Part shown: positions 4,672 to 44,721 of the stretch, piece after piece | Position numbering within the stretch: position 1 is the first letter of the stretch | Layout of the letters: each line of letters opens with the position of its first letter | NCBI RefSeq assembly: GCF_900109365.1 | Contig: NZ_FNZR01000014.1 | Location: 1-64,000, forward strand | Reading direction: 5' to 3' | From: Parapedobacter koreensis | GTDB lineage: Bacteria > Bacteroidota > Bacteroidia > Sphingobacteriales > Sphingobacteriaceae | DNA: 64,000 nucleotides | Translations under genes and position numbers: made by a program | Notes under the pieces: model-generated | Told to the model about the DNA's origin: nothing | Database searches by the model: none | What the model saw: only the letters and a program-made list of their open reading frames with translations

Positions 4672-4702
4672 TTTGCTTAGTGTACAAAATACACTACCTT
4701 TG
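4672..4702 (+). promoter_or_regulatory. Promoter with internal operator, small RNA copy 1
   Basis: TTTG at 4672-4675, a 19-base spacer and TACCTTTG at 4695-4702 give a perfect Bacteroidota promoter. Between and overlapping the boxes is the palindrome TAGTGTA-N5-TACACTA at 4678-4696, whose last two bases are the TA of the -7 box. A protein bound there would exclude RNA polymerase. Copies 2 and 3 keep the same layout base for base in both arms. Confidence 0.7.
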
Positions 4703-4775
4703 TAGCTTCATAATTTAGGTTTATAATTGGTTAGTTAAAAAAGTCTCCATCCTCCCCGTTTGGAGACTTTTTTTA
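4703..4775 (+). ncRNA. Putative small RNA, copy 1 of 3
   Basis: About 70 bases from the predicted start to the end of a T-run. The 5' part (TAGCTTCATAATTTAGG, then TTTATAATTGGTTAG) is shared with copies 2 and 3. It ends in a 12-base perfect hairpin, AAAAAAGTCTCC (4737-4748) with GGAGACTTTTTT (4762-4773), around a 13-base C-rich loop containing CCTCCCCG. Relative to the other copies the stem has changed on both arms (GTCTCC/GGAGAC versus GTTTCC/GGAAAC), so pairing is conserved. No open reading frame of note. It ends five bases before the stop of the opposing isomerase gene. An independent terminator alone would not need the conserved promoter. Confidence 0.55.
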
Positions 4776-4778
4776 TGT

Positions 4779-5675
4779 TCAGCCCACATCGCAGATTGTT
4801 ATCGCTTGTTTCAAGGAAGCCAATGGATCCGGCCGCTTGGGAATAAATTCTTGGGCTACGTGTCCCTTAAACCCCGTTTCTACAATCGCCTTCATAATAG
4901 CCGGATAGTTGAGTTCCTGCGTCTCATCAATTTCATTCCGGCCGGGCACGCCCCCGGTGTGGTAATGCGCAATGTAAGGGCTGTATTTCCGGATGGTAGC
5001 AATTACGTCGCCTTCCATGATCTGCATGTGGTAGATATCATAAAGCAGCTTAAAGCGTTCGGATCCCATTTCATCACATACCGCCACGCCCCAGGCCGTA
5101 TGATCGCATTGGTAATCGGGGTGATCCACCTTGCTGTTCAGCAGCTCCATCACCAAGGTGACGCCGTGCTTTTCCGCCGTATCCATCAACCGTTTCAAGC
5201 CGCTGGCACAATTCCTGATGCCCTGCTCATCATCCAGCCCGTTGCGGTTGCCCGAAAAGCAGATAAGTTGATCATAACCGGCGGCGGCAACCTTGGGAAT
5301 CATCGTTTCATAGTTCGCTACCAGTTCATCGTGGAGCCTGGGGTCGTTGAACCCTTCCGTAATGCCCTTACCGGCCCCATGCGGCAAAGCAGCATGCAGG
5401 CCATATTGCTCCAGCACCGGCCATTCATCCGGCCCCACCAAGTCAATACCCGATATACCCATGTCCTTCGCTGCTTGGCAGAGATCTGCCAACGGGATGG
5501 ACGGATAACACCACCGACAAACCGAATGATTGATTTTACCTTGCAACGCAAAGGGGAGGGCTGTTTCGGCAGCGGATATGCGGTGAAACATGCTGTTGGC
5601 CAGCATTGCGGTTCCGGAGGCAGCGACGGCTTTCAAAGCACTTCTTCTTGACCAAATTTGAGGTGTGGGTTTCAT
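4779..5675 (-). CDS. Sugar phosphate isomerase/epimerase family protein (hydroxypyruvate isomerase-like), exported
   Basis: A 298-residue xylose-isomerase-like TIM barrel. The N-terminus has a twin-arginine signal (WSRRSALKAVAASGTAML) ending near residue 30, so the protein is predicted to be exported folded. Barrel motifs include GISGIDLVGPDEWP, the metal-ligand Glu in VTLVMELLNSKVDHPDY, FKLLYDIYHMQIMEGD and HVAQEFIPKR, as in hydroxypyruvate isomerase relatives. Start at 5675 is chosen because the twin-arginine motif follows it directly. It stands alone between small RNA copies 1 and 2; its promoter must lie close to that of copy 2, which fires in the opposite direction. Substrate not determinable. 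Confidence 0.75.
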   Translation of the reverse strand: MKPTPQIWSRRSALKAVAASGTAMLANSMFHRISAAETALPFALQGKINHSVCRWCYPSIPLADLCQAAKDMGISGIDLVGPDEWPVLEQYGLHAALPHGAGKGITEGFNDPRLHDELVANYETMIPKVAAAGYDQLICFSGNRNGLDDEQGIRNCASGLKRLMDTAEKHGVTLVMELLNSKVDHPDYQCDHTAWGVAVCDEMGSERFKLLYDIYHMQIMEGDVIATIRKYSPYIAHYHTGGVPGRNEIDETQELNYPAIMKAIVETGFKGHVAQEFIPKRPDPLASLKQAITICDVG

Positions 5676-5783
5676 TGGTTCATTATTTTGCGATGTGTCA
5701 AACTTACTAAAAGCCGCTCGGATATGCAATTGTCGCTCACGAATCACCCGCTGCCGGCCACGTCAAAAAAAATTTATATTTTT

Positions 5784-5814
5784 TTTGCATAGTGTAAAAA
5801 ATACACTATCTTTG
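5784..5814 (+). promoter_or_regulatory. Promoter with internal operator, small RNA copy 2
   Basis: TTTG at 5784-5787, a 19-base spacer and TATCTTTG at 5807-5814. The palindrome TAGTGTA-AAAAA-TACACTA occupies 5790-5808, in the same position relative to the boxes as in copies 1 and 3. Confidence 0.7.
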
Positions 5815-5888
5815 TAGCATCATAATTTAGGTTTATAATTGGTTAGTAAAGGTTTCCATTCTCCCCGTTTGGAAACCTTTCGTTTTTT
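5815..5888 (+). ncRNA. Putative small RNA, copy 2 of 3
   Basis: Same layout as copy 1: shared 5' segment TAATTTAGGTTTATAATTGG, then the hairpin AAAGGTTTCC (5848-5857) with GGAAACCTTT (5871-5880), 13-base loop with CTCCCCG, and a TTTCGTTTTTT tail that marks transcription on the + strand. It ends about 17 bases before the stop codon of the opposing permease gene at 5905. It is almost identical to copy 3. Confidence 0.55.
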
Positions 5889-5904
5889 AGTCCCTGCCTG
5901 AATA

Positions 5905-8166
5905 TTATCGACGCCTCCTGCGGATCAATATCATCACGCCGATGGAAGCGATCAGTGCGGGCACCACGGCAATAAGCAAGATCTGCTGTTGCTTGATCTG
6001 CGTGCGGCCTACCGTGATGGTGCGGTCGGTCGCCCGTTCGGTATTGGGACTATAGGGATATTCGCCATCAGAAAACCACCGGAATAGCCGCCCGATGACA
6101 AAACTGGCATTTTGTACACCATACCGCTGGGCGATTTCCCGATTTCCCATGAAATCGGCATCGCCTGACAGGATGATGCGCTGCTCGCGCTTACCTACCC
6201 GACGGTACAACGCGGCCAACAGCAGGTGCTGCGCACGGGCATCCTGTGTGGAATCAAACACCACGGGCTCATTGGCGAGATCAAACGGGCCAAGTTTCCG
6301 CCACGAAGCGGGGCGGCTGGTCAGCAGCGGCACCACCGTAAAATGTGTGCTATCGACCACTTCCAACGGCGCCGCTCCGGGCATGCCTACCGTTGCCCCT
6401 TCAAAAAAGCCGAACCCAAGGCTATCCGCCTGCGGTGCAAACTGGGCTTCAATTCTATCCAGTTCGTTATAAGCGCTCTCCTGCAATACCGTACCTTCCC
6501 CCAGCCGCATGCCCAGCATCTCAGCAATGGGATTGATTAGGTGCTGCTTGCCGGGTTCTCCAGCAAGCAGCAGATTACCGCCCCCGGCAATGTATGCAGC
6601 TATCTTAGTGAGTTCCGTAGCACCATAAGCCTCCAGGGGGTCAGCGATGATGAGTGCGCCAAGGGTGGCCGGTATGGCAGCTACCTGCCGAAGGTCTACC
6701 ACATGGGGTTCGAAACCTTGGTTGATAAGCGAAGCACGGACAGCGCGCCCCTTAGCCACCAGTTGATAAGCACCATCCGCCGCCTTATCCAAGCTGCGTT
6801 CCTGATGGCCCGTAAGCACCCATACGGGGGTGGGACCGTCCAGTAGCCGTTTGACGGCGGCCATTACTTCCGCCTCGCCGGGGTACTGGAAAAGGTCGTC
6901 ATACATCCGGAGCGGGGTGTACCTGCCGTCATATTCCAGCATGCGCACAAAGGTATTGCCTTCGTCAGACAAATCGATACGCCTCCGGATTTGCGCGGGT
7001 GACAATACCCTATCAAAATCAAAGCCCCGTACACCTGCCACTTCGCGAGCCTGCTCCTTTAAGGTACGCGTAGTATCCAGTCCGTACGGTACGGAGTCGT
7101 AATAGGTGATGTAATCCAACTGCATGTGCGGGAGAAAGCGCTGTAAGCGTTCAAAACGGCGCTGGTCGCTAATCCGGTTGCTGGGCTCGCCAAATGCCAC
7201 ATTCCGATCAAGCAAGTTGGTATAGGTGGTGAGCTTTACGGGCTTTTCCAGTCGCTGGAGCAGCTGCTGGGATTTCGTGCTGAACGTTTGGTCTTGTATG
7301 CGCGTGGTATCCCAATACCCGATGAACGGCGAGCGCGAACTGCAATAGGCAATGCCCACCAACAGTGCCGATAGGGATACATGGACGGTCATACGGCGAT
7401 ACCAAGGGCGATGCTGCCGGCTATGGGATAGCTTCACGATCGTCAGGCTAAGGAAATAGGCGACCAAAGCGACCAAATAAAGCACGTCCCTGCTGGTCAC
7501 GAGCCCATTGATAAGCCCCTCCACCTTACCGGAGAGCGACAGCCAATAGGCCATATCGCGCAGCACATCAGTACCTTGCCAGAGGCTACCCACATGATTA
7601 AAAGCCGCCAATACGGCCAATGTGCCCACGGCCGCCACCAGTGGATAGCCTGTAAGGCTCGATAGCAGCAGCCCAATGGCCGAATATACGCACAACAACA
7701 CGTAAAGCGCCATGATACCCGCCAGCACAAAGCGCACATCCAGTGCCTGCACCGACCAGCAGGCCGCCGGCAAGTACAGCAGCACGACACCGCAGAGCAA
7801 TAGTCCATATACCGCCATTGCGGCAAACTTGCCCAGCACAACCTGCACCGAAGTGACCGGCGACGATTGAAGCAGCTTTATCGATCCACTGGCGATTTCA
7901 CGGCTGAGCAGGCCCATCGTCAGCAACGGCACGTAGAGGTACAAGTAGGTAGATACCTGTGTGAGCAGCCCCTCCTCGCCCGCAAATAAAACCCGCGTGA
8001 GCACATTCAGCGGCCGCCCCAGTTGCTGGGCCGTTTCTTGCGCATAGAGTATACCGGTATAGGTGATCCCTCCCTGCACGGCAAAAACCACCAGCAACAA
8101 CCAGGCAATGGGCGAATAAAACAATACCGCCAGCTCTAACCGCGCTATCCGACCGATCTTCCGCAT
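5905..8166 (-). CDS. ABC permease fused to GldG-like domain (second copy)
   Basis: A 753-residue protein. Residues 1-240 form an ABC-2 type permease with six helices (GldF-like: YSPIAWLLLVVFAVQGG, LLTMGLLSREIASGSIKLLQSSPVTSVQVVLGKF). After a seventh helix comes a GldG-like extracytoplasmic domain (about 280-720) with LIIADPLEAYGATEL and GGNLLLAGEP, and a last helix with a basic tail at 725-753. In gliding Bacteroidota GldF and GldG are separate; here they are one chain. Start at 8166 lies one base after the ATPase stop. A paralogue of the same design is encoded on the other side of the ATPase, so the transporter may be a heterodimer. Cargo unknown. Confidence 0.75.
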   Translation of the reverse strand: MRKIGRIARLELAVLFYSPIAWLLLVVFAVQGGITYTGILYAQETAQQLGRPLNVLTRVLFAGEEGLLTQVSTYLYLYVPLLTMGLLSREIASGSIKLLQSSPVTSVQVVLGKFAAMAVYGLLLCGVVLLYLPAACWSVQALDVRFVLAGIMALYVLLCVYSAIGLLLSSLTGYPLVAAVGTLAVLAAFNHVGSLWQGTDVLRDMAYWLSLSGKVEGLINGLVTSRDVLYLVALVAYFLSLTIVKLSHSRQHRPWYRRMTVHVSLSALLVGIAYCSSRSPFIGYWDTTRIQDQTFSTKSQQLLQRLEKPVKLTTYTNLLDRNVAFGEPSNRISDQRRFERLQRFLPHMQLDYITYYDSVPYGLDTTRTLKEQAREVAGVRGFDFDRVLSPAQIRRRIDLSDEGNTFVRMLEYDGRYTPLRMYDDLFQYPGEAEVMAAVKRLLDGPTPVWVLTGHQERSLDKAADGAYQLVAKGRAVRASLINQGFEPHVVDLRQVAAIPATLGALIIADPLEAYGATELTKIAAYIAGGGNLLLAGEPGKQHLINPIAEMLGMRLGEGTVLQESAYNELDRIEAQFAPQADSLGFGFFEGATVGMPGAAPLEVVDSTHFTVVPLLTSRPASWRKLGPFDLANEPVVFDSTQDARAQHLLLAALYRRVGKREQRIILSGDADFMGNREIAQRYGVQNASFVIGRLFRWFSDGEYPYSPNTERATDRTITVGRTQIKQQQILLIAVVPALIASIGVMILIRRRRR

Positions 8167-8167
8167 A

Positions 8168-9124
8168 TCAGTGATCCTGAGCAGCCTGCTTTGACAATTG
8201 ATAAAAGATACCGTCAAGCGATGTTTTCTCCAGGTAGAGTTCCGTCAGTCCCCATCCCGCCGCCACCGCCCGTGCGATGAATGCCGCCGTGATGTCCGAT
8301 CCACCCACAAAGCGGCAACGGAAGCGATGGGGATCTACCTGCTCAATGGCGATGATGTCGGGGATGCGCAACGCTTCCAGCGTAGCGGGCGGATGGGCGA
8401 GCACCGCAATAAAGCTATTCGGGGCCACATGGTTATCGAATGCCGATAGCGTATCATCAAAGACTATCCGCCCGCGTTCGATCATGGCGATGCGGTCGCA
8501 CGTCGCCTGTACTTCGGACAGAATGTGCGTCGATAGGATGACGGCCCGTTCTTCGGCCAACTGCCGGATAAGCTTGCGCACCTCTTGAATCTGGTTGGGA
8601 TCCAAGCCATTGGCCGGCTCATCGAGCACCACCAATTTAGGGCTGTGGATGATGGCCTGCGCGATGCCTACCCGCTGCTGATAGCCTCCGGATAGGTTGG
8701 CAAGCAACCGGCGGCCATGCGCCGCAAGGCCACATTGCGCCTTCACGGCCTCCACCGCTCGCCCTATCGCAGCCTTCGGAACATCCCGCAGGGAGGCACA
8801 ATAGCGCAGGTACTCGTCTACGGTAAGCTCCGGGTACAGCGGTGCCTTCTGCGGAAGAAACCCGAGGCACCGCTTCGCTTCCACGGGATGTTTCCGCAGG
8901 TCAATGCCGTCGATGTAAACCTCGCCCTCCGTTTGATTGATCACCCCACAGAGGATGTTCATGGTCGTAGACTTGCCCGCCCCGTTGGAACCGAGCAAGC
9001 CCAGCACGCCACGTGCGGGGATGGCCAGGTTGATGTCGCGGATGGCCCACTCACGGGCATACCGGTGCGACAAGTGTTCCAGCAGGGCAATGGCCGCAGC
9101 TACAGGCTTCTTGGATGTACTCAT
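8168..9124 (-). CDS. ABC transporter ATP-binding protein (GldA-like)
   Basis: A 318-residue ATPase with Walker A GSNGAGKST (45-53), signature LSGGYQQ (144-150), Walker B LVVLDE (164-169) and switch His in STHILSE. It belongs to the DrrA/GldA group of ABC-2 exporters. The C-terminal 90 residues (RFRCRFVGGSDI...LYLEKTSLDGIFYQLS) are the usual extension of this group. Its start overlaps the stop of the upstream fused permease (ATGA at 9121-9124) and its stop is one base before the next permease, so all three are translated together. It presumably powers both permeases. Confidence 0.88.
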   Translation of the reverse strand: MSTSKKPVAAAIALLEHLSHRYAREWAIRDINLAIPARGVLGLLGSNGAGKSTTMNILCGVINQTEGEVYIDGIDLRKHPVEAKRCLGFLPQKAPLYPELTVDEYLRYCASLRDVPKAAIGRAVEAVKAQCGLAAHGRRLLANLSGGYQQRVGIAQAIIHSPKLVVLDEPANGLDPNQIQEVRKLIRQLAEERAVILSTHILSEVQATCDRIAMIERGRIVFDDTLSAFDNHVAPNSFIAVLAHPPATLEALRIPDIIAIEQVDPHRFRCRFVGGSDITAAFIARAVAAGWGLTELYLEKTSLDGIFYQLSKQAAQDH

Positions 9125-11385
9125 TTTCTCCTCCTTCTGATGATGATAAGCGTGCCCCCCAAGGCCAGCACAGATGGCAGTAGTACCCCTGTCAGGACAC
9201 GAGCCCCCGCAAACTGTGCCTTATCGTACCGAATACGGTTGTCTATCGGGGCAGGCCGCCGGGTATCCGGCGGGTATTCGCCATGGCTAAACCAACGCAG
9301 CAATTGGGTACCCAGCTCAGCGTTGCCCGTCCGGACGTTGTACCGTGACCATTCACCCTTACTCAGGAAATCGGCATCACCCGTGACGACTATACGCTGT
9401 TCTTTACCCGGCAGCTGCCTCACGGTGGCCACTGCAACGATCGCACGTTGCTTCCGGTCGACAGCCGGATCAAACACGACCCGTCCCGTTTTCAGGTCAA
9501 ACGAGGCCGTCCTGTTCCAGGTGTATCGCCCGTCGGTCTCCAATACGGGCGCGGTAACAAACCCGGCCGTATCGCGGTACACAAGGCCCACCGCACCGGG
9601 CATGGTAATGACGGTATCACCAGGCACAGAAAACCCCAAGCCACTGATGCCGCCGCTGAATCGGGCCTGTATGAGATCCGGCTCATAGTCCTTGCTTTCC
9701 TGCAAGAGCTTACCCGGAGCAAACCGCACCCCAAAAGGCTCACTGATCGTATTTAATATAGCCTGGCGGCCAGGTTCTCCCGCCAGCAACAGGTTGCCCC
9801 CTAACGCGATATAGCGTTGGATATTGGCCAGCTGCTCGCCAGTATAAGGCACCAGCGGATCGGCCAGGATAAGCACATCCAAGCTGTCAGGATGCAGCCG
9901 TGGGCTATCGGCCTCAAGGGTTGTCACCTCAGCCCCCTGATTGATCCAGGCCCTGCGGGTATTCAGTGCCGTCATAAGCGGCGGGTAGTCTTTATCGCCA
10001 TCGCGGTAAGGGCTGCGTTCGGCATGGCCCGTAAGCATTCCCACGGTCAATGGTTTGTCCAGCAATCGCTTGACGGCGGCGATCACTTCGGCTTCCCCCG
10101 GATACGCCTCGATATCATGAAACATTCGCAATGGCGTAGTCTTGCCCCGGTACGTCAGCAGCCGCACAAATTGGTTGCGCTCTGCCGATAGGTCCACCCG
10201 CTGGCGGATGGCGGATGGTGGCAGTACGTCAGCCATATCAAATCCATAAGCCGTCGCCCGGCGGAGCGCTTGCTCCCGGAGGGGTATATTCGGATCCAGG
10301 CGAGTATCCGTGGTGTCGTAGAAATACACGTAATCCCGTTCCAACTGGGGCAGGTACCGTCGGATTTGTTCCAAGTTGGATTGGTCAAAGTTGCGGAACC
10401 GCGGCGACCCGATGTGGGCAAGGTTGCCCAAGAGATTGACATAGGTGGTGAGCTGTACCCGCTCGTCCACGCGGGCGATGATTTCTTTGCTCCGCTGGGT
10501 AAATGACTGGGTAGCATAGCGGGTAGCGTCTGCATAATACTGCATACCAGGCCGGGAGCTGGCATATCCCAGTCCCACCACGACCAGCAGCAGCAAGCCA
10601 TAGCGTATTACCTGCACCCACGCAGCACGCCATGCCCGATCCGCATCCAGCTTCATGCTGGTGAGCGTGATAAACAGGCTGATCACCAGCAGGAAATAAC
10701 AGACGTCCTTGCTGCTGATGAGCCCCTTGAGGAAATAGCCCGTGCGGCCCCGCATGGAAAACCAGTACGTGATGTCCCGCACCACGTCGACGCCGCTGCC
10801 CACCTCACCCACATAGTTGAGCCCAGCCAGTACAGCGAGCGTCCCGATGGCCGCTACGGCTTGGTACCGGGTAAGGCTCGAGACGTACAGCCCAATGGCC
10901 GCATAGGCGGCCAGCAACAGGTATAAGCCAAGAAGGGCTGCGGCAAGATACCCCCTATCAAGGTGCGGAATAGCCATACCCGCCACGCCGATGGGAGCCA
11001 GCAAAAGGACGACGAAGAGTAGCCCGAAAACCAGCATGGCTACGTATTTACCAAAGACCAGTTGCCGCGTTGTCACGGGTGCCGACAGCAGTAGCTTGAT
11101 GGAGCCGCTGTGCACTTCGCGGCTTACCAGCCCCATCGTGAGCAGCGGCATATACAGATACAGGTGTCTTTGCATCGTGGCAAATAAACCGCTGCTTCCA
11201 CCAAAGACATCCTGCGTGAGCGAGGGCAGTTCACCGCCCAGTTGTTGGGAAAATATGCGCGCACCCAGCAGATCAGCAAACACCAGACCCGCCTGCACAG
11301 CAAAGACAACCAGCAACAGCCACGCCACCGGAGCGTAAAAGAACGTCTTCAGCTCCAACCCTGCTATCCGGTATACTTTACCCAT
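9121..11385 (-). CDS. ABC permease fused to GldG-like domain (first copy)
   Basis: A 754-residue protein built like the one at 5905-8166: six-helix ABC-2 permease (YAPVAWLLLVVFAVQAG, LLTMGLVSREVHSGSIKLLLSAPVTTRQLVFGKY), a GldG-like domain from about residue 280 with VLILADPLVPYTGEQL and GGNLLLAGEPGRQ, and a terminal helix followed by IIRRRRK. Identity between the two is high throughout, indicating duplication within the operon. Start at 11385 is preferred to the ATG three codons earlier because of spacing; both are possible. It follows the M14 peptidase gene by 31 bases. Confidence 0.75.
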   Translation of the reverse strand: MGKVYRIAGLELKTFFYAPVAWLLLVVFAVQAGLVFADLLGARIFSQQLGGELPSLTQDVFGGSSGLFATMQRHLYLYMPLLTMGLVSREVHSGSIKLLLSAPVTTRQLVFGKYVAMLVFGLLFVVLLLAPIGVAGMAIPHLDRGYLAAALLGLYLLLAAYAAIGLYVSSLTRYQAVAAIGTLAVLAGLNYVGEVGSGVDVVRDITYWFSMRGRTGYFLKGLISSKDVCYFLLVISLFITLTSMKLDADRAWRAAWVQVIRYGLLLLVVVGLGYASSRPGMQYYADATRYATQSFTQRSKEIIARVDERVQLTTYVNLLGNLAHIGSPRFRNFDQSNLEQIRRYLPQLERDYVYFYDTTDTRLDPNIPLREQALRRATAYGFDMADVLPPSAIRQRVDLSAERNQFVRLLTYRGKTTPLRMFHDIEAYPGEAEVIAAVKRLLDKPLTVGMLTGHAERSPYRDGDKDYPPLMTALNTRRAWINQGAEVTTLEADSPRLHPDSLDVLILADPLVPYTGEQLANIQRYIALGGNLLLAGEPGRQAILNTISEPFGVRFAPGKLLQESKDYEPDLIQARFSGGISGLGFSVPGDTVITMPGAVGLVYRDTAGFVTAPVLETDGRYTWNRTASFDLKTGRVVFDPAVDRKQRAIVAVATVRQLPGKEQRIVVTGDADFLSKGEWSRYNVRTGNAELGTQLLRWFSHGEYPPDTRRPAPIDNRIRYDKAQFAGARVLTGVLLPSVLALGGTLIIIRRRRK

Positions 11386-11416
11386 GATGCGCAAAGCTAT
11401 GAAATATCCTTGCGGA

Positions 11417-14227
11417 TTATTGGCTCGCCTTTAAGTGATCCCAATTGATGAGGATATTCCACACCAGCGGGGCATCATGATGGTTTTGATAGCGGTGCAA
11501 CGGATCGAACGTGAAGGCCAGCAGCCGCCCTTTGCCAACGGGCACGTCAAAGATTGCTCCTTCGCCAATGATCTCGTCTTCATTCCTGACCATGCCGGAC
11601 AGCACATAGGGGTATTTCGACGCGTCAACGGCAGTAGCCGCCTCAATCGGTGTATTTTCCTGTGCGGGCAATCCCAGGATAGGCCCCCGGTAAGGCTCGT
11701 CCACTTTGGCCGTCTGTGCGCCGTATTGCAGCAATAGCATATCCTGCCGGTAGCGTTTTTCCACCGCAAGCACGGGGCCGTTGCCACGGAATACAGGGAA
11801 CAGCTCCGGATACCCATAGAACACCGGATTGCCCCGTTGTTTTACCCGCGCCTGCACCACCGATCCCGGATGGAAAAGCCGCGAAGTAGGCTTCACCCCC
11901 AATTCACCACCGATACCCGTGCCAGCCACCATCATGGACGAATTATCCATGGTGACGATAATTCCGCCCTGCTCGGCAAATGCCTGCAAGTTGGCTACCC
12001 CCTCGAAGCCCGGCCCACCGGTGATGTCGTCCGTCGCATCCGGGAAACCATGGGCGGGGTATTCATCCGTCTTGGTATAGGGCATGGGGCCGTACTTCCT
12101 GTCAATCTCGTGGATAAAATCCGTAACGCCTCCACGCAACCTGGGCACCAGTATCACGTCAAACTGCTCCCGCAGGTTGCCGGCCTTGAGGTGATCCTTG
12201 TTGATGGACGTATAAGGGATACCCCGTTGCTCCAAAGTATAGCGCGTCCACCCTTCGTCCTGGGTATAAGCCCAGCTGTGGTATACCGCTACCCTTGGCA
12301 GGGTTACCGGGCGTTGCCTGGCTTCCACTTTTGACGCGGAGGCAACGAGATCCAAGCCGAAGGCAGTAGCTATCGCGGTAGCATCGTCGCTGGAGATGCC
12401 CTCGAATACAATAGAGCCCGCCGGAATACTATCCAGCCCCCCTGGCACCACCCGGTCTTCCTCAATGAGCGCCACACTGGCCGAAGGCCGTTGCTTTTGC
12501 AGCCAATACAGCGCAGCTAATACCGTGTTCTGTGCCTTATACGGAAGGTAATAATAAGCGCCGCTACCCACCACCTTCCCCCGGTGCACGACTTCCTTAT
12601 CCAATAGCTGCAAATTTGCCCTTTCGTATTTCGGCTCAGCAAGCTCCTGCACATCAACGCCAAAGAGCAAGCCGAACGTCCATGCCACGTCATCGTACGG
12701 GGGGTGCTCCGCATCCTTGGGATACTGCTGTTTGGACAGCAGTGTCTTCGCAAAAGGGCCATAGGGCTGGTCCAGCAGCACCACATAATCACCGATGCCT
12801 TCCCCCTGCGTCACCTGGTGCACCTCGATACCCTGAATCAGCAGTTGATTTACAAGGTAAGCGGCCATAGCCGGATCGCGCTGCTTGGCCGGAATGGCAA
12901 ATGCTTTGACGCTGCCCGTTTTTCCCTTTTCGACAGCCTTCACCCCTTTCTGGTAAAAATTTTCAAGCAGCGTAGCGCCGTTCGTTGCCGCATATTGCAG
13001 TGCGGCAATGGCACCAGCCTGCATGTAATTGATGTTGTTGCGGAAGGACCATAGTACTTTTTCGGTGGCCGGATCGGGACGGTACCATTCCCTGGCGGTA
13101 GCCGGTTTCCCGGCATAGCGGCCGTCAGCCAGATCGCGCAGGAACGTATTTGCCCCAGCATTGCCAAACGTCTCGTAGAAGCGGCCGATGCTGTTGTGGT
13201 TATTGGCCACCCAGCCGAGGTACTCCACATGCCACCCATCGAAGAATGCCCAGGTGAAGACACCGGGCAGCCCCTGTGCCGATAGCTGTGTCATCTCGTG
13301 CTGCGCCAGCAGCTGCCATTCGTTTACCGTCACCGGATCAGTGTCCGGATTATACGGCCCCGTGCCGGTAGAGATGTACAACAGCGGTACGGACTCGTGC
13401 AAATCGAGGAATACCGTGGGATACCATTCAAAATACGCCCGGATGGCCGCCTTGCTCAGCTCCTGCGTCACCTGTATCCCGTCGCGGTTGTTGTCATGCA
13501 CCACGTATTTCCCCCAATAGGGCGGTCTTGCGGGCATACCATCATCCCAATCGGTGCGCTGCTTGGAATAACGGTAATACCAGTCGCGCATTTTGTCCCA
13601 CCCATCCGGCTCTGATACCGGATTGATCACCGTGATGACCCGCTCGCGCACCGCGGCAATCGCCTGGGAAGTATCGGTAGCCAGCCGATAGGCCAGCTCC
13701 ATGAGCATCTCCGGCGATCCGGTCTCCGGCGAGTGCAACCCACCATTCAGGTAATACACCGGCTTGGCCTTGCCGATGATGGCCATTGCTTCTTCACGGG
13801 TGATTTTCCGCGGATCGGCCAGTTGAGCCAGCCGTGCCTTATAAGCGGCCAATTGCTGGATGGTCTGCTCATCGGCAATGACGATGAGGTGCATATCGCG
13901 CCCCTCCTCGGAAACGCCGAGGCGGGTCATCTCCACCCGTGGCGAGTGGTCTGCCAATGCCTTGAAATATCCGTAGATTTCCGTGGTATTGTGCATGATG
14001 CCCGGTGCGCCAATGATTTCGCCGAAGTGATCAAGCGGCGACGGTGCAGCAGGATCATCCACGAGATCCAATACCGATGAGGGGAGGAAACGGGCGTCCG
14101 TGGTATAAGCGCGTATTTTTTCATTGTAAGCCCTATCGATGGGCTGGCCTATCGCCAAGCCTCCCGAACAGCATATAGCGGCTGCCAGCAGCCACCTAAC
14201 TGCACCATTACGACTAATTCTATTCAT
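11417..14227 (-). CDS. M14 family zinc metallopeptidase (second copy)
   Basis: A 936-residue secreted protein with a signal peptide (about 1-27). The peptidase M14 domain spans about 65-430, with zinc ligands H165-x-x-E168 in GGLHSPETGSPE and H277 in FLDLHESVPLL. The C-terminal half includes a class I glutamine amidotransferase-like fold (about 650-800: VAVYHSWAYTQDEGWTRY, FDVILVPRLRGG, GGIIVTMDNSS). No lipobox is seen, so it is probably periplasmic. A close paralogue lies 15 bases upstream. The context suggests a peptide or protein substrate connected with the ABC transporter. That is inference. Confidence 0.8.
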   Translation of the reverse strand: MNRISRNGAVRWLLAAAICCSGGLAIGQPIDRAYNEKIRAYTTDARFLPSSVLDLVDDPAAPSPLDHFGEIIGAPGIMHNTTEIYGYFKALADHSPRVEMTRLGVSEEGRDMHLIVIADEQTIQQLAAYKARLAQLADPRKITREEAMAIIGKAKPVYYLNGGLHSPETGSPEMLMELAYRLATDTSQAIAAVRERVITVINPVSEPDGWDKMRDWYYRYSKQRTDWDDGMPARPPYWGKYVVHDNNRDGIQVTQELSKAAIRAYFEWYPTVFLDLHESVPLLYISTGTGPYNPDTDPVTVNEWQLLAQHEMTQLSAQGLPGVFTWAFFDGWHVEYLGWVANNHNSIGRFYETFGNAGANTFLRDLADGRYAGKPATAREWYRPDPATEKVLWSFRNNINYMQAGAIAALQYAATNGATLLENFYQKGVKAVEKGKTGSVKAFAIPAKQRDPAMAAYLVNQLLIQGIEVHQVTQGEGIGDYVVLLDQPYGPFAKTLLSKQQYPKDAEHPPYDDVAWTFGLLFGVDVQELAEPKYERANLQLLDKEVVHRGKVVGSGAYYYLPYKAQNTVLAALYWLQKQRPSASVALIEEDRVVPGGLDSIPAGSIVFEGISSDDATAIATAFGLDLVASASKVEARQRPVTLPRVAVYHSWAYTQDEGWTRYTLEQRGIPYTSINKDHLKAGNLREQFDVILVPRLRGGVTDFIHEIDRKYGPMPYTKTDEYPAHGFPDATDDITGGPGFEGVANLQAFAEQGGIIVTMDNSSMMVAGTGIGGELGVKPTSRLFHPGSVVQARVKQRGNPVFYGYPELFPVFRGNGPVLAVEKRYRQDMLLLQYGAQTAKVDEPYRGPILGLPAQENTPIEAATAVDASKYPYVLSGMVRNEDEIIGEGAIFDVPVGKGRLLAFTFDPLHRYQNHHDAPLVWNILINWDHLKASQ

Positions 14228-14242
14228 GGTATAATAGCGCTT

Positions 14243-17017
14243 TTATTTTTTGTCTAAATGGTTCCAATTGATGACCGCATTCCACACCAGCGGGGCATCA
14301 TGGTGATTCAAGTACCGATGCAGCGGATCAAACGTAAATCCTACCACACGGCCTTTTCCCACCGGCACATTGAACACCGCACCTTCTCCCTGGATAGGTT
14401 CTTCATTGCGCACCATGCCGGAGATGACATAGGGATGATCCTTGGCAGCGTAGTTTTTCGGTGCCACTGCCTTTTCCTGCTCGGGCATTCCCAAAATCGG
14501 GCCCGAATACGGGATGTCCGCCTTAGCGGTAGGCACACCATATTGGAGCACCAGCATATCGCGGTCTTTCTTTTCTACCTGCAGCAGCGGCCCGTTGCCC
14601 CTGAAGATGGGGAATAATTCGGGGTAGCCATACAGAATGGGGCTGGAAGCAATCCGCGCACGCGTCTGCACGATGGAGCCTGGGTGCAGCATACTGCCTG
14701 CGGGCTTCTCGCTTAGCCCCTCGGCAATGCCCACCTCGGCCAGCATCAATGTCGAATTGTCCATGGTGATGAGTGTGCCGCCGTTGTCTACAAACGTGTG
14801 CAAGTTGGCCACCCCATCGAATCCAGGGCCGCCGGTCATGTCATCCGTCGCATCGGGATAGCCATGCGAGGGGTATTCCTTTGTCTTGGTATACGGCATC
14901 GGGCCAAACTTCTTATCCACATCGTGGATGAAATCCTTGCCCGAGCCCCGTAGGCGGGGCACCAGGATCACATCGAAGCGATCATTCAGTTTGCCTTGTT
15001 TAAGATCAGCTTTATCGATGGAAGTATAGGGAATTCCCCGTTGTTCAAGCGTGAAGCGTGTCCACCCTTCATCCTGCGTGTTTGACCAGGTGTGAAATAC
15101 GGCGATACGCGGCAAGGTCACCGGATGTCTGGCAGCGGTGATGGCGGTCCCGGTGGCCAGCAAATCCAAGCCAAATGCAGCCGCGAGTTCATTCGCCCGC
15201 GAAGCACCCAGGCCGCTGAAAACCACGCTGCCCCGGCCAAGGGTATCGGCACCCGATACCACCTCAGCATCCAGCACCTCGAAACTCACCTTCCCATCGT
15301 TTTCCTTGAGCCAGTAGAGGCTCGGCAGCACGGTTTGTTGCGCTTTGTAGGGAATGACATAGGTCGACCCATTGCCGCGCACACTTCCTTTATACACGGT
15401 ATCTTCCGTCAGGAGCTTAAGCACGTTGTCCGGATAGCGGCTCACATCGTTGGCCTCCTGCACATCCACGCCATACAGCAACCCAAACGTCCACGCGATA
15501 TCATCGTATGGCGGAAACTCAGCATCTTTCGGAAATTGTTGCTTGGTGAGCAAGGATACCGCCAGGTTGCGATAAGGTTGGTCCAGTTTGACCACGTAAT
15601 CCCCCTGGTTTGCGCCGGATGCCGCCTCATGCACTTCGATAGCCTGCGCCCGGAGCTGGTTTACCAAGTAAGCCGCCATGAAAGGATCCCGCTGCTTCTT
15701 CGGAATGATGAACGCCTTTAGCGTATCGGTTTTCCCCTTTTCGATGGCTTTCACGCCTTTCTTGTAGAAATTCTCAAGCAGTGTCTTACTATTTATCGAG
15801 GCAAACCGAAGTCCGGCCAACACACCAGCCTGCATGTAGTTGACATTGTTGCGCAATGACCACACGACCTTTGCCGTCGCCGGATCCGGCCGGTACCACT
15901 CGCGGCTGGTCGCCGGTTTGCCGGCGTAGTTGCCGCCGATATCCCGCAGGAAGGTATTTGACCCGGCATTGCCAAACGTTTCATAAAAGCGGCCGATGCT
16001 ATTGTGATTGTTGGCTATCCAGAAGAGGTATCCCGGATACCATCCATCATAGAAGCCCCAGGTAAACACCCCCGGGAGGCCCTGTGCGGCCAGCTGCGTC
16101 ATCTCGTATTGTGCCAGCAGCGACCATTCATTGATGGTGGTCGGGTCGAGATCCGAATTATACGGCCCTGTGCCCACCGAGATGTAGAGCAGGGGCACCG
16201 ATTCATGCAAATCAAGCAGCACGGTAGGATGCCACTCATAATACACCCGGTAAGCCGCCTTGGTAAGCTCCTGAGATACCTGAAGCCCGTCGCGGTTGTT
16301 GTCGTGCACGGTATATTTCCCCCAATAGGGAGGCCGGGTGGGCATACCATCATCCCAATCGGTGCGGGCCTTGGTATAGCGGTTGTACCAGTCGGTCTGC
16401 TTATCCCATCCATCGGGTTCGGATACCGGGTTTATGATGGTGATCACCCCCTCGCGGATATCCTTGATGGATGCAGCGGTATCGGTAGCCAGGCGATAGG
16501 CCAGCTCCATGAGCATATGGGGCGAACCCGTTTCGGGGGAATGCAAGCCGCCATTGAGGAAATAGATTGGCTTGGCCTGCCCGATGATGGTGGCCGCTTC
16601 CGCCGGTGAAAGTTTGCGCGGATCGGCCAGCTTGGCAAGCTGCGCTTTGTAATGGTCGAGGTTGTTCATGGTCTGCTCATCCGCAATCACAATCAACTGT
16701 ATCGGGCGGCCTTCCTCCGTGGTGCCTACCTGGGTCATGCTTACCCGATCCGATGTCTCCGCCAACTTACTGAAATAGCCGTAGATCTGCGTCGTATTGT
16801 ACATAATGCCCGGTGCGCCTACGATCTCGCCAAAGTGCTTCAGCGGTGATGGTACGTTCGGGTCGGTTAGCAGGTTGAGCACCGATGACGGCAAAAACCG
16901 ATCATCCGTAGTGTATTCCTTAATTTTTTGGTTGTAAACTTCATCGATTTGCTGTGCATAACCTGCGGCGTGCACCAGCAATACACCAGAAGCCAATAGG
17001 GTCAATGATCTCTTCAT
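14243..17017 (-). CDS. M14 family zinc metallopeptidase (first copy)
   Basis: A 924-residue paralogue of the downstream peptidase, starting at MKRSLTLLASGVLLVHAAGYAQ (signal peptide, cleavage near residue 22). Zinc ligands H159-x-x-E162 in GGLHSPETGSP and H271 in LLDLHESVPLL are intact, as is the NPVSEPDGWD motif. The C-terminal amidotransferase-like region is also retained. First gene of a five-gene minus-strand operon (two peptidases, permease, ATPase, permease). A longer frame to 17050 adds an unlikely prefix before the signal peptide. Both copies keep their metal ligands, so neither looks like a dead duplicate. Confidence 0.8.
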   Translation of the reverse strand: MKRSLTLLASGVLLVHAAGYAQQIDEVYNQKIKEYTTDDRFLPSSVLNLLTDPNVPSPLKHFGEIVGAPGIMYNTTQIYGYFSKLAETSDRVSMTQVGTTEEGRPIQLIVIADEQTMNNLDHYKAQLAKLADPRKLSPAEAATIIGQAKPIYFLNGGLHSPETGSPHMLMELAYRLATDTAASIKDIREGVITIINPVSEPDGWDKQTDWYNRYTKARTDWDDGMPTRPPYWGKYTVHDNNRDGLQVSQELTKAAYRVYYEWHPTVLLDLHESVPLLYISVGTGPYNSDLDPTTINEWSLLAQYEMTQLAAQGLPGVFTWGFYDGWYPGYLFWIANNHNSIGRFYETFGNAGSNTFLRDIGGNYAGKPATSREWYRPDPATAKVVWSLRNNVNYMQAGVLAGLRFASINSKTLLENFYKKGVKAIEKGKTDTLKAFIIPKKQRDPFMAAYLVNQLRAQAIEVHEAASGANQGDYVVKLDQPYRNLAVSLLTKQQFPKDAEFPPYDDIAWTFGLLYGVDVQEANDVSRYPDNVLKLLTEDTVYKGSVRGNGSTYVIPYKAQQTVLPSLYWLKENDGKVSFEVLDAEVVSGADTLGRGSVVFSGLGASRANELAAAFGLDLLATGTAITAARHPVTLPRIAVFHTWSNTQDEGWTRFTLEQRGIPYTSIDKADLKQGKLNDRFDVILVPRLRGSGKDFIHDVDKKFGPMPYTKTKEYPSHGYPDATDDMTGGPGFDGVANLHTFVDNGGTLITMDNSTLMLAEVGIAEGLSEKPAGSMLHPGSIVQTRARIASSPILYGYPELFPIFRGNGPLLQVEKKDRDMLVLQYGVPTAKADIPYSGPILGMPEQEKAVAPKNYAAKDHPYVISGMVRNEEPIQGEGAVFNVPVGKGRVVGFTFDPLHRYLNHHDAPLVWNAVINWNHLDKK

Positions 17018-17230
17018 AATGAATTGGAAATTTGGTGAGCCAATATACAAATTATATCGGCTTTTACGCGTCGGACAAGCTTATTCATCGGATTTGATTT
17101 TTTCATCATTTTGCAGGTTATCATGAAAACTTGATGGCGATAAGTGGCAACCATTGAACACATTACTTCAAAGCACCAATTTTATTAAAATTTTTAAAGT
17201 GAGGAATTTTAGAAAAAAATGAAAAAAAAT

Positions 17231-17261
17231 TTTGAATAGTGTAAAGAATACACTACCTTTG
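17231..17261 (+). promoter_or_regulatory. Promoter with internal operator, small RNA copy 3
   Basis: TTTG at 17231-17234, a 19-base spacer and TACCTTTG at 17254-17261, with TAGTGTA-AAGAA-TACACTA at 17237-17255. This sits in a gene-free stretch (17018-17361) that holds nothing else I can identify apart from the promoter region of the peptidase operon. Confidence 0.7.
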
Positions 17262-17336
17262 TTGCATCATAATTTAGGTTTATAATTGGTTAGTAAAGGT
17301 TTCCATTCTCCCCGTTTGGAAACCTTTCGTTTTTTA
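17262..17336 (+). ncRNA. Putative small RNA, copy 3 of 3
   Basis: Nearly identical to copy 2: 5' segment TAATTTAGGTTTATAATTGG, hairpin AAAGGTTTCC (17295-17304) with GGAAACCTTT (17318-17327), loop containing CTCCCCG, tail TTTCGTTTTTT. It ends about 26 bases before the stop codon of the opposing FG-GAP gene at 17362. Confidence 0.55.
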
Positions 17337-37770: not shown

Positions 37771-38045
37771 GGGCGCTGTTAGCAAGACCAACGAAACTGT
37801 AACGCTCGCTTCGCTCACGCCACTAGGTTTCTCTTGGGCTTGCTAAGCAGCTTGGGTGGGAATTAAAAAACCCTGCCCACCCCACCCCGGCTTTTACACC
37901 CGTTGCATAGTCCGGCCTTGGGTGCGGGCGCTGTTAGCAAGACCAACGAAACTGTAACGCTCGCTTCGCTCACGCCACTAGGTTTCTCTTGGGCTTGCTA
38001 AGCAGCTTGGGTGGGAATTAAAAAACCCTGCCCACCCCACCCCGG
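37771..38045. repeat. 155-base tandem repeat with hairpins
   Basis: Two 120-base copies (37771-37890 and 37926-38045) look identical or nearly so, at a 155-base period; the 35 bases after each are recognisably related but diverged. Each copy has an outer stem CTGTTAGCAAG / CTTGCTAAGCAG (37776-37786 with 37839-37850, and again 155 bases on) plus GAAAC/GTTTC, and a second hairpin GGGTGGG / CCCACCC. This gene-free stretch (37665-38119) holds nothing else. It resembles a REP/BIME or small non-autonomous element. Confidence 0.75.
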
Positions 38046-38119
38046 TTTTACGCCTGCTGCAGCGTCCAGCCTTGGAGGTCCAAGCGAAGCGACGGAGATC
38101 CCAGCTGGCGATCAGCAGG

Positions 38120-41194: not shown

Positions 41195-41208
41195 CTCCCT
41201 TAGATAAG

Positions 41209-41320
41209 TGCCAAAAATGTGATTTTTTTCACATAATCAATAGTTAATATGTGCAAATCTATAATTTTAGCCAATATTAACTGCCAAAAATGTGTATGAA
41301 ATCACATTTTTGGCAGTTAA
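41209..41320. repeat. Perfect 18-base inverted repeat and direct repeat before the ATPase
   Basis: TTAACTGCCAAAAATGTG (41277-41294) and its exact complement (41303-41320) flank an 8-base loop. TGCCAAAAATGTG also occurs at 41209-41221, just upstream of the ATPase start. Could be an operator set, a terminator of the HTH operon or a transposon end. Confidence 0.7.
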
Positions 41321-44526: not shown

Positions 44527-44721
44527 TCAGAGATAAATGTGCTCGCACTTATCATCTTCATCGAGGATAGGAAAAAGCAATTCGTATGCTTCGTTCAGTG
44601 ATGCTTCCATGATGGAAAGGTGTTTGAGGTTAGTCCTACTCTGTTTCTCAGGTTTTCGGAATCCCCTGTGGCTGGCGGCGCCGCCAACCGCGTTCGTATC
44701 GACATCGGCTAACTTCCGCAT
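44527..44721 (-). CDS. Hypothetical short peptide
   Basis: An open frame of 64 codons; an internal start at 44610 would give a 27-residue acidic peptide (MEASLNEAYELLFPILDED, then DKCEHIYL). It has one Cys and an acidic C-terminal part. I recognise no family and coding is uncertain. It is considered because it directly precedes the acyltransferase, separated by a hairpin. Confidence 0.3.
   Translation of the reverse strand: MRKLADVDTNAVGGAASHRGFRKPEKQSRTNLKHLSIMEASLNEAYELLFPILDEDDKCEHIYL

Follow-up and report, generated by a model that had tools for sequence, protein, structure and literature searches.

In Bacteroides, the FopS small RNAs (sRNAs; Rfam RF04319) are encoded by 12–15 paralogues of 65–70 nt, each made up of a single-stranded stretch followed by a terminator, and the accessible part of their description (PMC11697453) reports that they target the translation starts of susC genes, have RbpB as a partner and include an occurrence in a phage. 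Here, we analysed a stretch of 64,000 nt from Parapedobacter koreensis (family Sphingobacteriaceae; contig NZ_FNZR01000014.1, positions 1 to 64,000; hereafter the window), in which three short units lie on the + strand at 4672–4775, 5784–5888 and 17231–17336. We consider it quite probable that these units encode trans-acting sRNAs of one multicopy family that block susC translation, making them the Sphingobacteriaceae counterpart of FopS. An earlier note on this DNA had located the units at these very places, which we confirmed, and had added that no family with such a layout was described; FopS has that layout, as far as the accessible part of its description goes.

Two other kinds of Bacteroides sRNA share some of these features, according to the portions of PMC7366714 and PMC11697453 available to us. 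GibS of Bacteroides thetaiotaomicron is likewise trans-encoded, with a single-stranded 5' seed directed against translation starts and a terminator, but it differs in its length of ~145 nt, in its two seed regions and in its metabolic targets, which are other than susC. DonS-type cis-antisense RNAs are comparable in their negative effect on susC homologues; however, they are encoded in cis, opposite their targets (PMC7366714, same limitation), whereas the family considered here has one seed spread over scattered loci.

The three window units are built alike. Each contains a perfect TTTG-N19-TAnnTTTG (4672–4702, 5784–5814 and 17231–17261, read from the sequence; TAccTTTG, TAtcTTTG and TAccTTTG in copies 1, 2 and 3), which we take to be the promoter form of Bacteroidota. 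A candidate operator dyad, TAGTGTA-N5-TACACTA, lies between the promoter boxes of copy 1 (4678–4696) and has exact counterparts in copies 2 and 3 (5790–5808 and 17237–17255). The 5' seed follows, about at the expected transcription start, at 4708–4735 in copy 1 (TCATAATTTAGGTTTATAATTGGTTAGT), and at 5820–5847 and 17267–17294 in the two others, the common 5' segment CATAATTTAGGTTTATAATTGGTTAGT being identical in all three. Each unit then ends in a hairpin and a T-run that together form a predicted intrinsic terminator (4737–4776 with loop ATCCTCCCCGTTT; 5848–5889 and 17295–17335, both with loop ATTCTCCCCGTTT). The stem reads GTCTCC/GGAGAC in copy 1 and GTTTCC/GGAAAC in copies 2 and 3, a change on both arms, and the units encode no protein: they hold no open reading frame (ORF), and no ATG occurs from seed to T-run. 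The layout bears out the earlier note. In the window, the 17-mer TTTAGGTTTATAATTGG of the segment has three matches at ≤3 mismatches, a number reached by 0 of 100 shuffles, and the dyad also has three (≤2 mismatches; shuffle mean 0.06, 0/100 reaching three). In the predicted folds of copies 2 and 3 the seed is open and the terminator closed, and the seed of copy 1 may pair weakly over part of its length; the folding z-scores of the three units are -3.7, -2.7 and -2.7.

When reverse-complemented, the seed gives ACTAACCAATTATAAACCTAAATTATGA, which resembles a gene leader ending in an ATG start codon, and several of the first 30 susC leaders of the P. koreensis genome, which has 56 SusC genes, carry pieces of it just before their ATG (for example ...AUUAACCAAUUAAUUUAAUUAACCAAGUUAUG, antisense to the seed). 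The computed RNA duplex energy between the seed and the 56 leaders averaged -12.58 kcal/mol, versus -9.32 for dinucleotide-shuffled seeds of preserved composition, and 0 of 300 shuffles reached the real value. Among 68 other genes, taken from the window and the susC loci, no excess was found (-9.88 versus -9.50; 54 of 200 shuffles reached the seed). In a direct comparison with these 68 genes, a set of 30 susC leaders out of the 56 scored better as a group (p=0.001 on energies and 0.0001 on per-gene z). The excess was also seen in genomes not used before, three further ones of the same genus and three of genus g13: on the held-out leaders of both genera (34 + 31, from the top of the susC matches listed in the six genomes, one G196 gene with an internal stop being left out), none of 300 shuffled versions of the P. 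koreensis seed reached the real value.

Moreover, one lineage shows matching changes in seed and leaders. The seed of genus g13, AGGTTTATATTTGGTTAG, carries a one-base change (...TATATTTGG...), and the leader test for the g13 seed variant, as for that of genus g16, was set down before the g13 leaders were obtained. The leader form AACCAAATA was present in 7 of 30 leaders of a g13 genome (G344; all 30 genes over the cut-off) versus 0 of 56 in P. koreensis, and AACCAATTA in 0 of 30 versus 5 of 56. In the pooled data, AACCAAATA was found in 0/90 same-genus and 11/61 g13 leaders (p=2.6e-5), and AACCAATTA in 6/90 and 1/61 (p=0.24). When all 60 single seed substitutions were ranked by the difference in pairing between the lineages, the real one came first in the pooled data and second in the held-out genomes.

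The window units belong to a much larger set. The earlier note had spoken of a three-copy family, which is the share of the window only: the P. koreensis genome contains 13 exact copies of the 18-nt core AGGTTTATAATTGGTTAG, and the backward pattern has 0 matches in it at ≤1 mismatch and 4 at ≤3. With up to one mismatch, the core was found in all 8 other genomes of the genus (8–21 matches each) and in 12 of 16 other genomes of the family, versus 0 of 16 genomes of other families in the same sample of relatives; 13 of the 17 same-family genera sampled had core matches. A class-wide sample gave matches in 15/15 genomes of the family and in 3 of 380 from other families, each with a single one-mismatch match after which no hairpin was seen, while the backward control matched 6 of 395 genomes. 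Public genomes searched with a longer, window-type pattern yielded 27 stretches, from seven named Parapedobacter species, Sphingobacterium psychroaquaticum and one Sphingobacteriaceae isolate. A sequence-only model matched 8 of 295 genomes, all of the same family; it missed both listed g13 genomes, and diverged relatives could therefore be overlooked by it. In one same-family genome (G166), the pattern match looks like chance, and the model finds two other places there, one of them with a CTCCCCG hairpin. Plasmids gave only 19-nt partial matches, in Ligilactobacillus, and Rfam returned nothing relevant for 12 loci up to an E-value of 1. In the open-licence literature, 11-nt pieces of the seed occurred in no paper on bacterial sRNAs, as judged by title, and searches there gave no paper on sRNA or noncoding RNA in Sphingobacteriaceae with Pedobacter, on Sphingobacterium small regulatory RNA with TonB-dependent proteins, on phage-encoded small RNA with Bacteroides, or joining 3'ETS, tRNA precursor and sRNA.

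A terminator-like hairpin follows 114 of 121 distinct copies (identical copies collapsed, those too near a sequence end left out), versus 1 of 121 shuffled tails, and 83 of 90 when the 31 named copies are set apart, the query for these having contained half of the hairpin and the CTCCCCG loop. In the 16 copies with a CTCCCCG loop, 99.3% of the stem cells are paired and 7 of the 9 pairs have changed on both sides; sliding the stem partner by one base lowers the pairing to 61.8 or 74.8%. A selected terminator of whatever kind would be expected to covary in this way; it is the seed that carries the specific information. At least two loop types occur (CTCCCCG and CCCAT), and many copies lack the former. 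Thus the nearly constant CTCCCCG loop reported earlier is present in the window units, but the wider family shares the 5' seed and has many loops of the CCCAT or another type. Three settings can be told apart: some copies have a promoter of their own upstream, some follow a tRNA or tRNA-like gene, and the others lie elsewhere, frequently with GTCTTTT immediately ahead of the seed. By one and the same rule, an own promoter was called for 4/13 copies in the P. koreensis genome, 26/31 in the named set, 3/26 in the family sample, 1/18 in the class sample and 1/33 in the viral one. Two same-genus loci (L013 and L054) have a distinct layout and possibly represent a different type of RNA: CAAATA precedes the core, and no clear hairpin with a T-run follows it. 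Taken together, the spread over genera, the recurrent hairpins and the stem covariation support well the earlier view of a selected RNA, and the sequence comparison speaks against a duplication that is local, recent and free of further covariation. The functional core is probably the single-stranded seed and not the CTCCCCG loop. The units are thus very likely part of a real and selected multicopy family of sRNA genes in Sphingobacteriaceae, present also on some phage contigs.

The calculations yielded a gene layout, conservation in many copies, stem covariation, seed–leader complementarity above controls and a matching change in g13, and an antisense sRNA family directed against susC leaders is likely. 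Each unit would give rise to a transcript of about 66–70 nt, its ends, length and expression being those predicted from promoter and terminator. This transcript would start at a mostly single-stranded seed, UCAUAAUUUAGGUUUAUAAUUGGUUAGU, and end in the intrinsic terminator; its seed would be antisense to the leader and start codon of many mRNAs for SusC-type outer-membrane transporters. Pairing would most likely block translation initiation, so that a set of transporters could be turned down together. Repression as the outcome is assumed by analogy with FopS.

Several observations weigh against this proposal. That the 18-nt core does not vary is in part built into the search, as the copies were found by the core, and further pair types in the stem were not above shuffles (390/500). 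Start codons were assigned by rule (the ATG lying furthest upstream that has a hydrophobic stretch), and some of these assignments look mistaken. Good pairing with the seed is limited to a part of the susC leaders, 16 of the 56 P. koreensis leaders favour the seed with the one-base swap, and the P. koreensis seed beats its shuffles on the leaders of g13 and of the g16 genome G023 too (for G023, 34 of the 48 genes over the cut-off were used). The replication of the lineage difference was weak: in the held-out genomes, AACCAAATA was present in 0/34 versus 4/31 leaders (p=0.046) and AACCAATTA in 1/34 versus 1/31, the energy difference had p=0.06, and the first 29 held-out leaders alone (from 30 loci, as L306 could not be oriented) gave p=0.20. 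In g16, 15 leaders of G023 did not discriminate between the seeds (-12.91 for the g16-type seed and -13.03 for that of P. koreensis); it should be noted that the copies of G023 mix two seeds, part of them keeping that of P. koreensis. Thus the pooled g13 data show seed–leader covariation clearly, the replication shows it to a modest degree, and g16 does not show it. Finally, at an E-value of 0.001, the P. koreensis genome has neither a match to RRM_1 (PF00076), for which a Bacteroides ihuae control was positive, nor one to Hfq (TIGR02383), for which 5 of 14 control genomes were positive; any chaperone would therefore be of another kind.

The same data bear on other explanations. The conserved segment could mainly be a site for an RNA-binding protein, a chaperone handle or a titrating sponge, with its likeness to an antisense leader being secondary. 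It varies hardly at all between host and phage copies, as expected of a protein site, and RbpB of Bacteroides binds the 5' portion of FopS sRNAs (PMC11697453, accessible part). We nevertheless find this rather unlikely: no shuffled seed pairs with susC leaders as well as the real one does, in P. koreensis or in held-out genomes, seed and leaders change together in g13, and the genome has no RRM_1 or Hfq match. That the complementarity is a coincidence, arising from a common composition or from a translation-signal motif kept for other reasons, appears improbable given that shuffled seeds of the same composition never reach the real susC value and that the 68 other genes show no excess, even though leaders of the family are A/T-rich with a recurrent TAACCAA and a Tenacibaculum phage carries such leader-like text as well.

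We attach very little probability to a mobile or repetitive element (of MITE type or a terminator repeat) devoid of any regulatory role in trans. The many similar copies per genome and those on phage contigs would suit such an element; however, the seed is common while flanks, stems and upstream contexts differ, stem changes are compensated, some copies lie behind their own promoter and others behind tRNA or tRNA-like genes, and a search for inverted repeats of at least 40 nt found none at the units. Slighter still is the chance that the units act in cis on adjacent genes as leaders or attenuators, a role to which their intergenic position would lend itself. Downstream of every window copy, the nearest long ORF is a convergent one on the - strand, the neighbours are unrelated to one another (a TIM-barrel isomerase, an ABC-2 transporter and an FG-GAP protein), and each unit is closed by a terminator.

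How closely, then, do these antisense sRNAs resemble FopS? They share with it many paralogous copies per genome (13 exact cores here, 8–21 in the same genus), a 5' seed that is single-stranded and precedes a terminator hairpin, with the length being a predicted one and the seed of copy 1 partly in weak pairing, and a seed that is, in silico, complementary to susC translation starts beyond all 300 shuffles. As to sequence, 20 of 30 seed positions agree with FopS (p=0.0006 versus shuffles, an optimistic value, since the piece was chosen after alignment) and cmscan aligns copy 2 co-linearly with model RF04319, but no score against the model was significant. There are differences as well. Scores against RF04319 lie below its gathering threshold of 56 bits (12.4 for copy 1, 14.2 with E 2.7 for copy 2, 15.6 and 15.0 for two g16 copies; E 6.4 to 1.5 over the four), FopS was the best match of none of the four copies probed, and many unrelated families appear beside and above it at such loose E-values, so that the score alone proves nothing. 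The seed letters differ, and the FopS consensus seed did not pair significantly with Sphingobacteriaceae leaders (reached by 14, 22 and 14 of 200 shuffles for 90, 61 and 34 leaders). The partner of FopS is the RRM-1 protein RbpB, whereas no RRM_1 was found in the genome here, and the operator dyad, the tRNA-like precursors and the numerous phage copies are not in the accessible part of the FopS description (PMC11697453). By analogy, the family would work like FopS, of which it may be a distant relative; we do not file it as a FopS member, and the dedicated operator, the phage copies and the tRNA-like precursors are new relative to it. The control of nutrient transporters by sRNAs in Bacteroidota is known in detail from Bacteroides, with the RRM protein RbpB (same source, in part), and a counterpart without detectable RRM_1 or Hfq allows the generality of this control and the replacement of its chaperone to be tested. 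For this, the present family offers a readable seed, countable susC targets, a natural lineage experiment, a dedicated operator and phage copies, through which exploitation by phages becomes testable.

The exact 18-nt core is present in 37 viral contigs (L127–L163). Of 33 distinct viral copies kept, 30 have their own terminator-like hairpin, in most cases different from the host hairpins, and 25 carry the extension CATAATTTA (or CATAATATA); the three without a hairpin (L145, L148 and L157) are probably chance matches. Contigs L149, L138 and L136 contain terminase, portal or head genes and are therefore phages. In 3 of 29 viral contigs (L136, L150 and L151), ARAGORN placed a tRNA immediately ahead of the seed; in two of these cases the anticodon is not clear. 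SusC proteins may serve as phage receptors and burden the cell, and phage copies that shut down SusC-type receptors or transporters are our guess at their use. A fuller version is tentative and, in our view, doubtful: phages of Sphingobacteriaceae or of related hosts would carry host-seed sRNA genes, with their own terminators and some behind phage tRNAs, to shut off SusC synthesis during infection, and the host copies would arise in part from a conserved tRNA-Leu-like precursor. If so, one antisense RNA would be common to phages and hosts.

Among named phages, the sole match was in Tenacibaculum phage JQ, which we rejected as a copy, as no hairpin follows the seed-like text. Read on the other strand, this place (L385:3001–3029) resembles a leader that ends in ATG and lies upstream of the start annotated for the HNH endonuclease gene. 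A second query against named phages gave weak matches, and the 20 listed of 84 looked unrelated.

The position of some copies behind tRNA genes recalls sRNAs of the 3'ETS-leuZ type, tRNA trailers lying directly 3' of a tRNA gene from which tRNA processing could release the sRNA. Part of the family here is likewise placed directly 3' of a tRNA gene; the difference is that the trailer holds a seed antisense to mRNA and that the rest of the family is placed otherwise. In other genera of the family we found 11 distinct tRNA-like elements of 109–117 nt, lying 16–19 nt before the seed (L042, L043, L048, L064, L068, L170, L172, L178, L179, L181 and L373; starting near 1370–1380 in the oriented loci), all from loci fetched for the seed. 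They have a tRNA-Leu-like D-loop, a T-arm and a pairing acceptor (TGTAGG../..CCTACA), and no ordinary anticodon arm was seen. ARAGORN in default mode called none of the 10 elements scanned out of 11, and Rfam up to an E-value of 1 none of the 6 scanned; with introns allowed, ARAGORN called 4 of 14 sequences, as different tRNAs.

The dyad between the promoter boxes may point to a further layer of control. In the 5.5-Mb genome, AGTGT-N7-ACACT has 4 exact sites (backward control, 2), and because 3 of them are the window copies, these sites pointed to no regulator gene. With one mismatch allowed, the number of genome sites (10) was near that of the control (8). With at most one change, the dyad also accompanies copies in other genera, namely L061 of G024 and L360 and L372 of G023, as well as copy L111 of Sphingobacterium psychroaquaticum. 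A DNA-binding regulator of the dyad-bearing sRNA genes is likely, and the window copies would be under its control at this dedicated site.

Elsewhere in the window, the sole Rfam match at gathering threshold was a DUF805b RNA motif on the - strand (44633–44669). A 124-nt direct repeat of 99% identity, with a start-to-start distance of 155, occupies 37771–38049, and an inverted repeat with 53-nt arms, 75% complementary and 9 nt apart, lies at 41205–41319. The region 5905–17050 encodes two neighbouring M14-peptidase proteins that look like tandem paralogues, and beside them two similar ABC-2 transporter/auxiliary proteins flanking an ABC ATPase.
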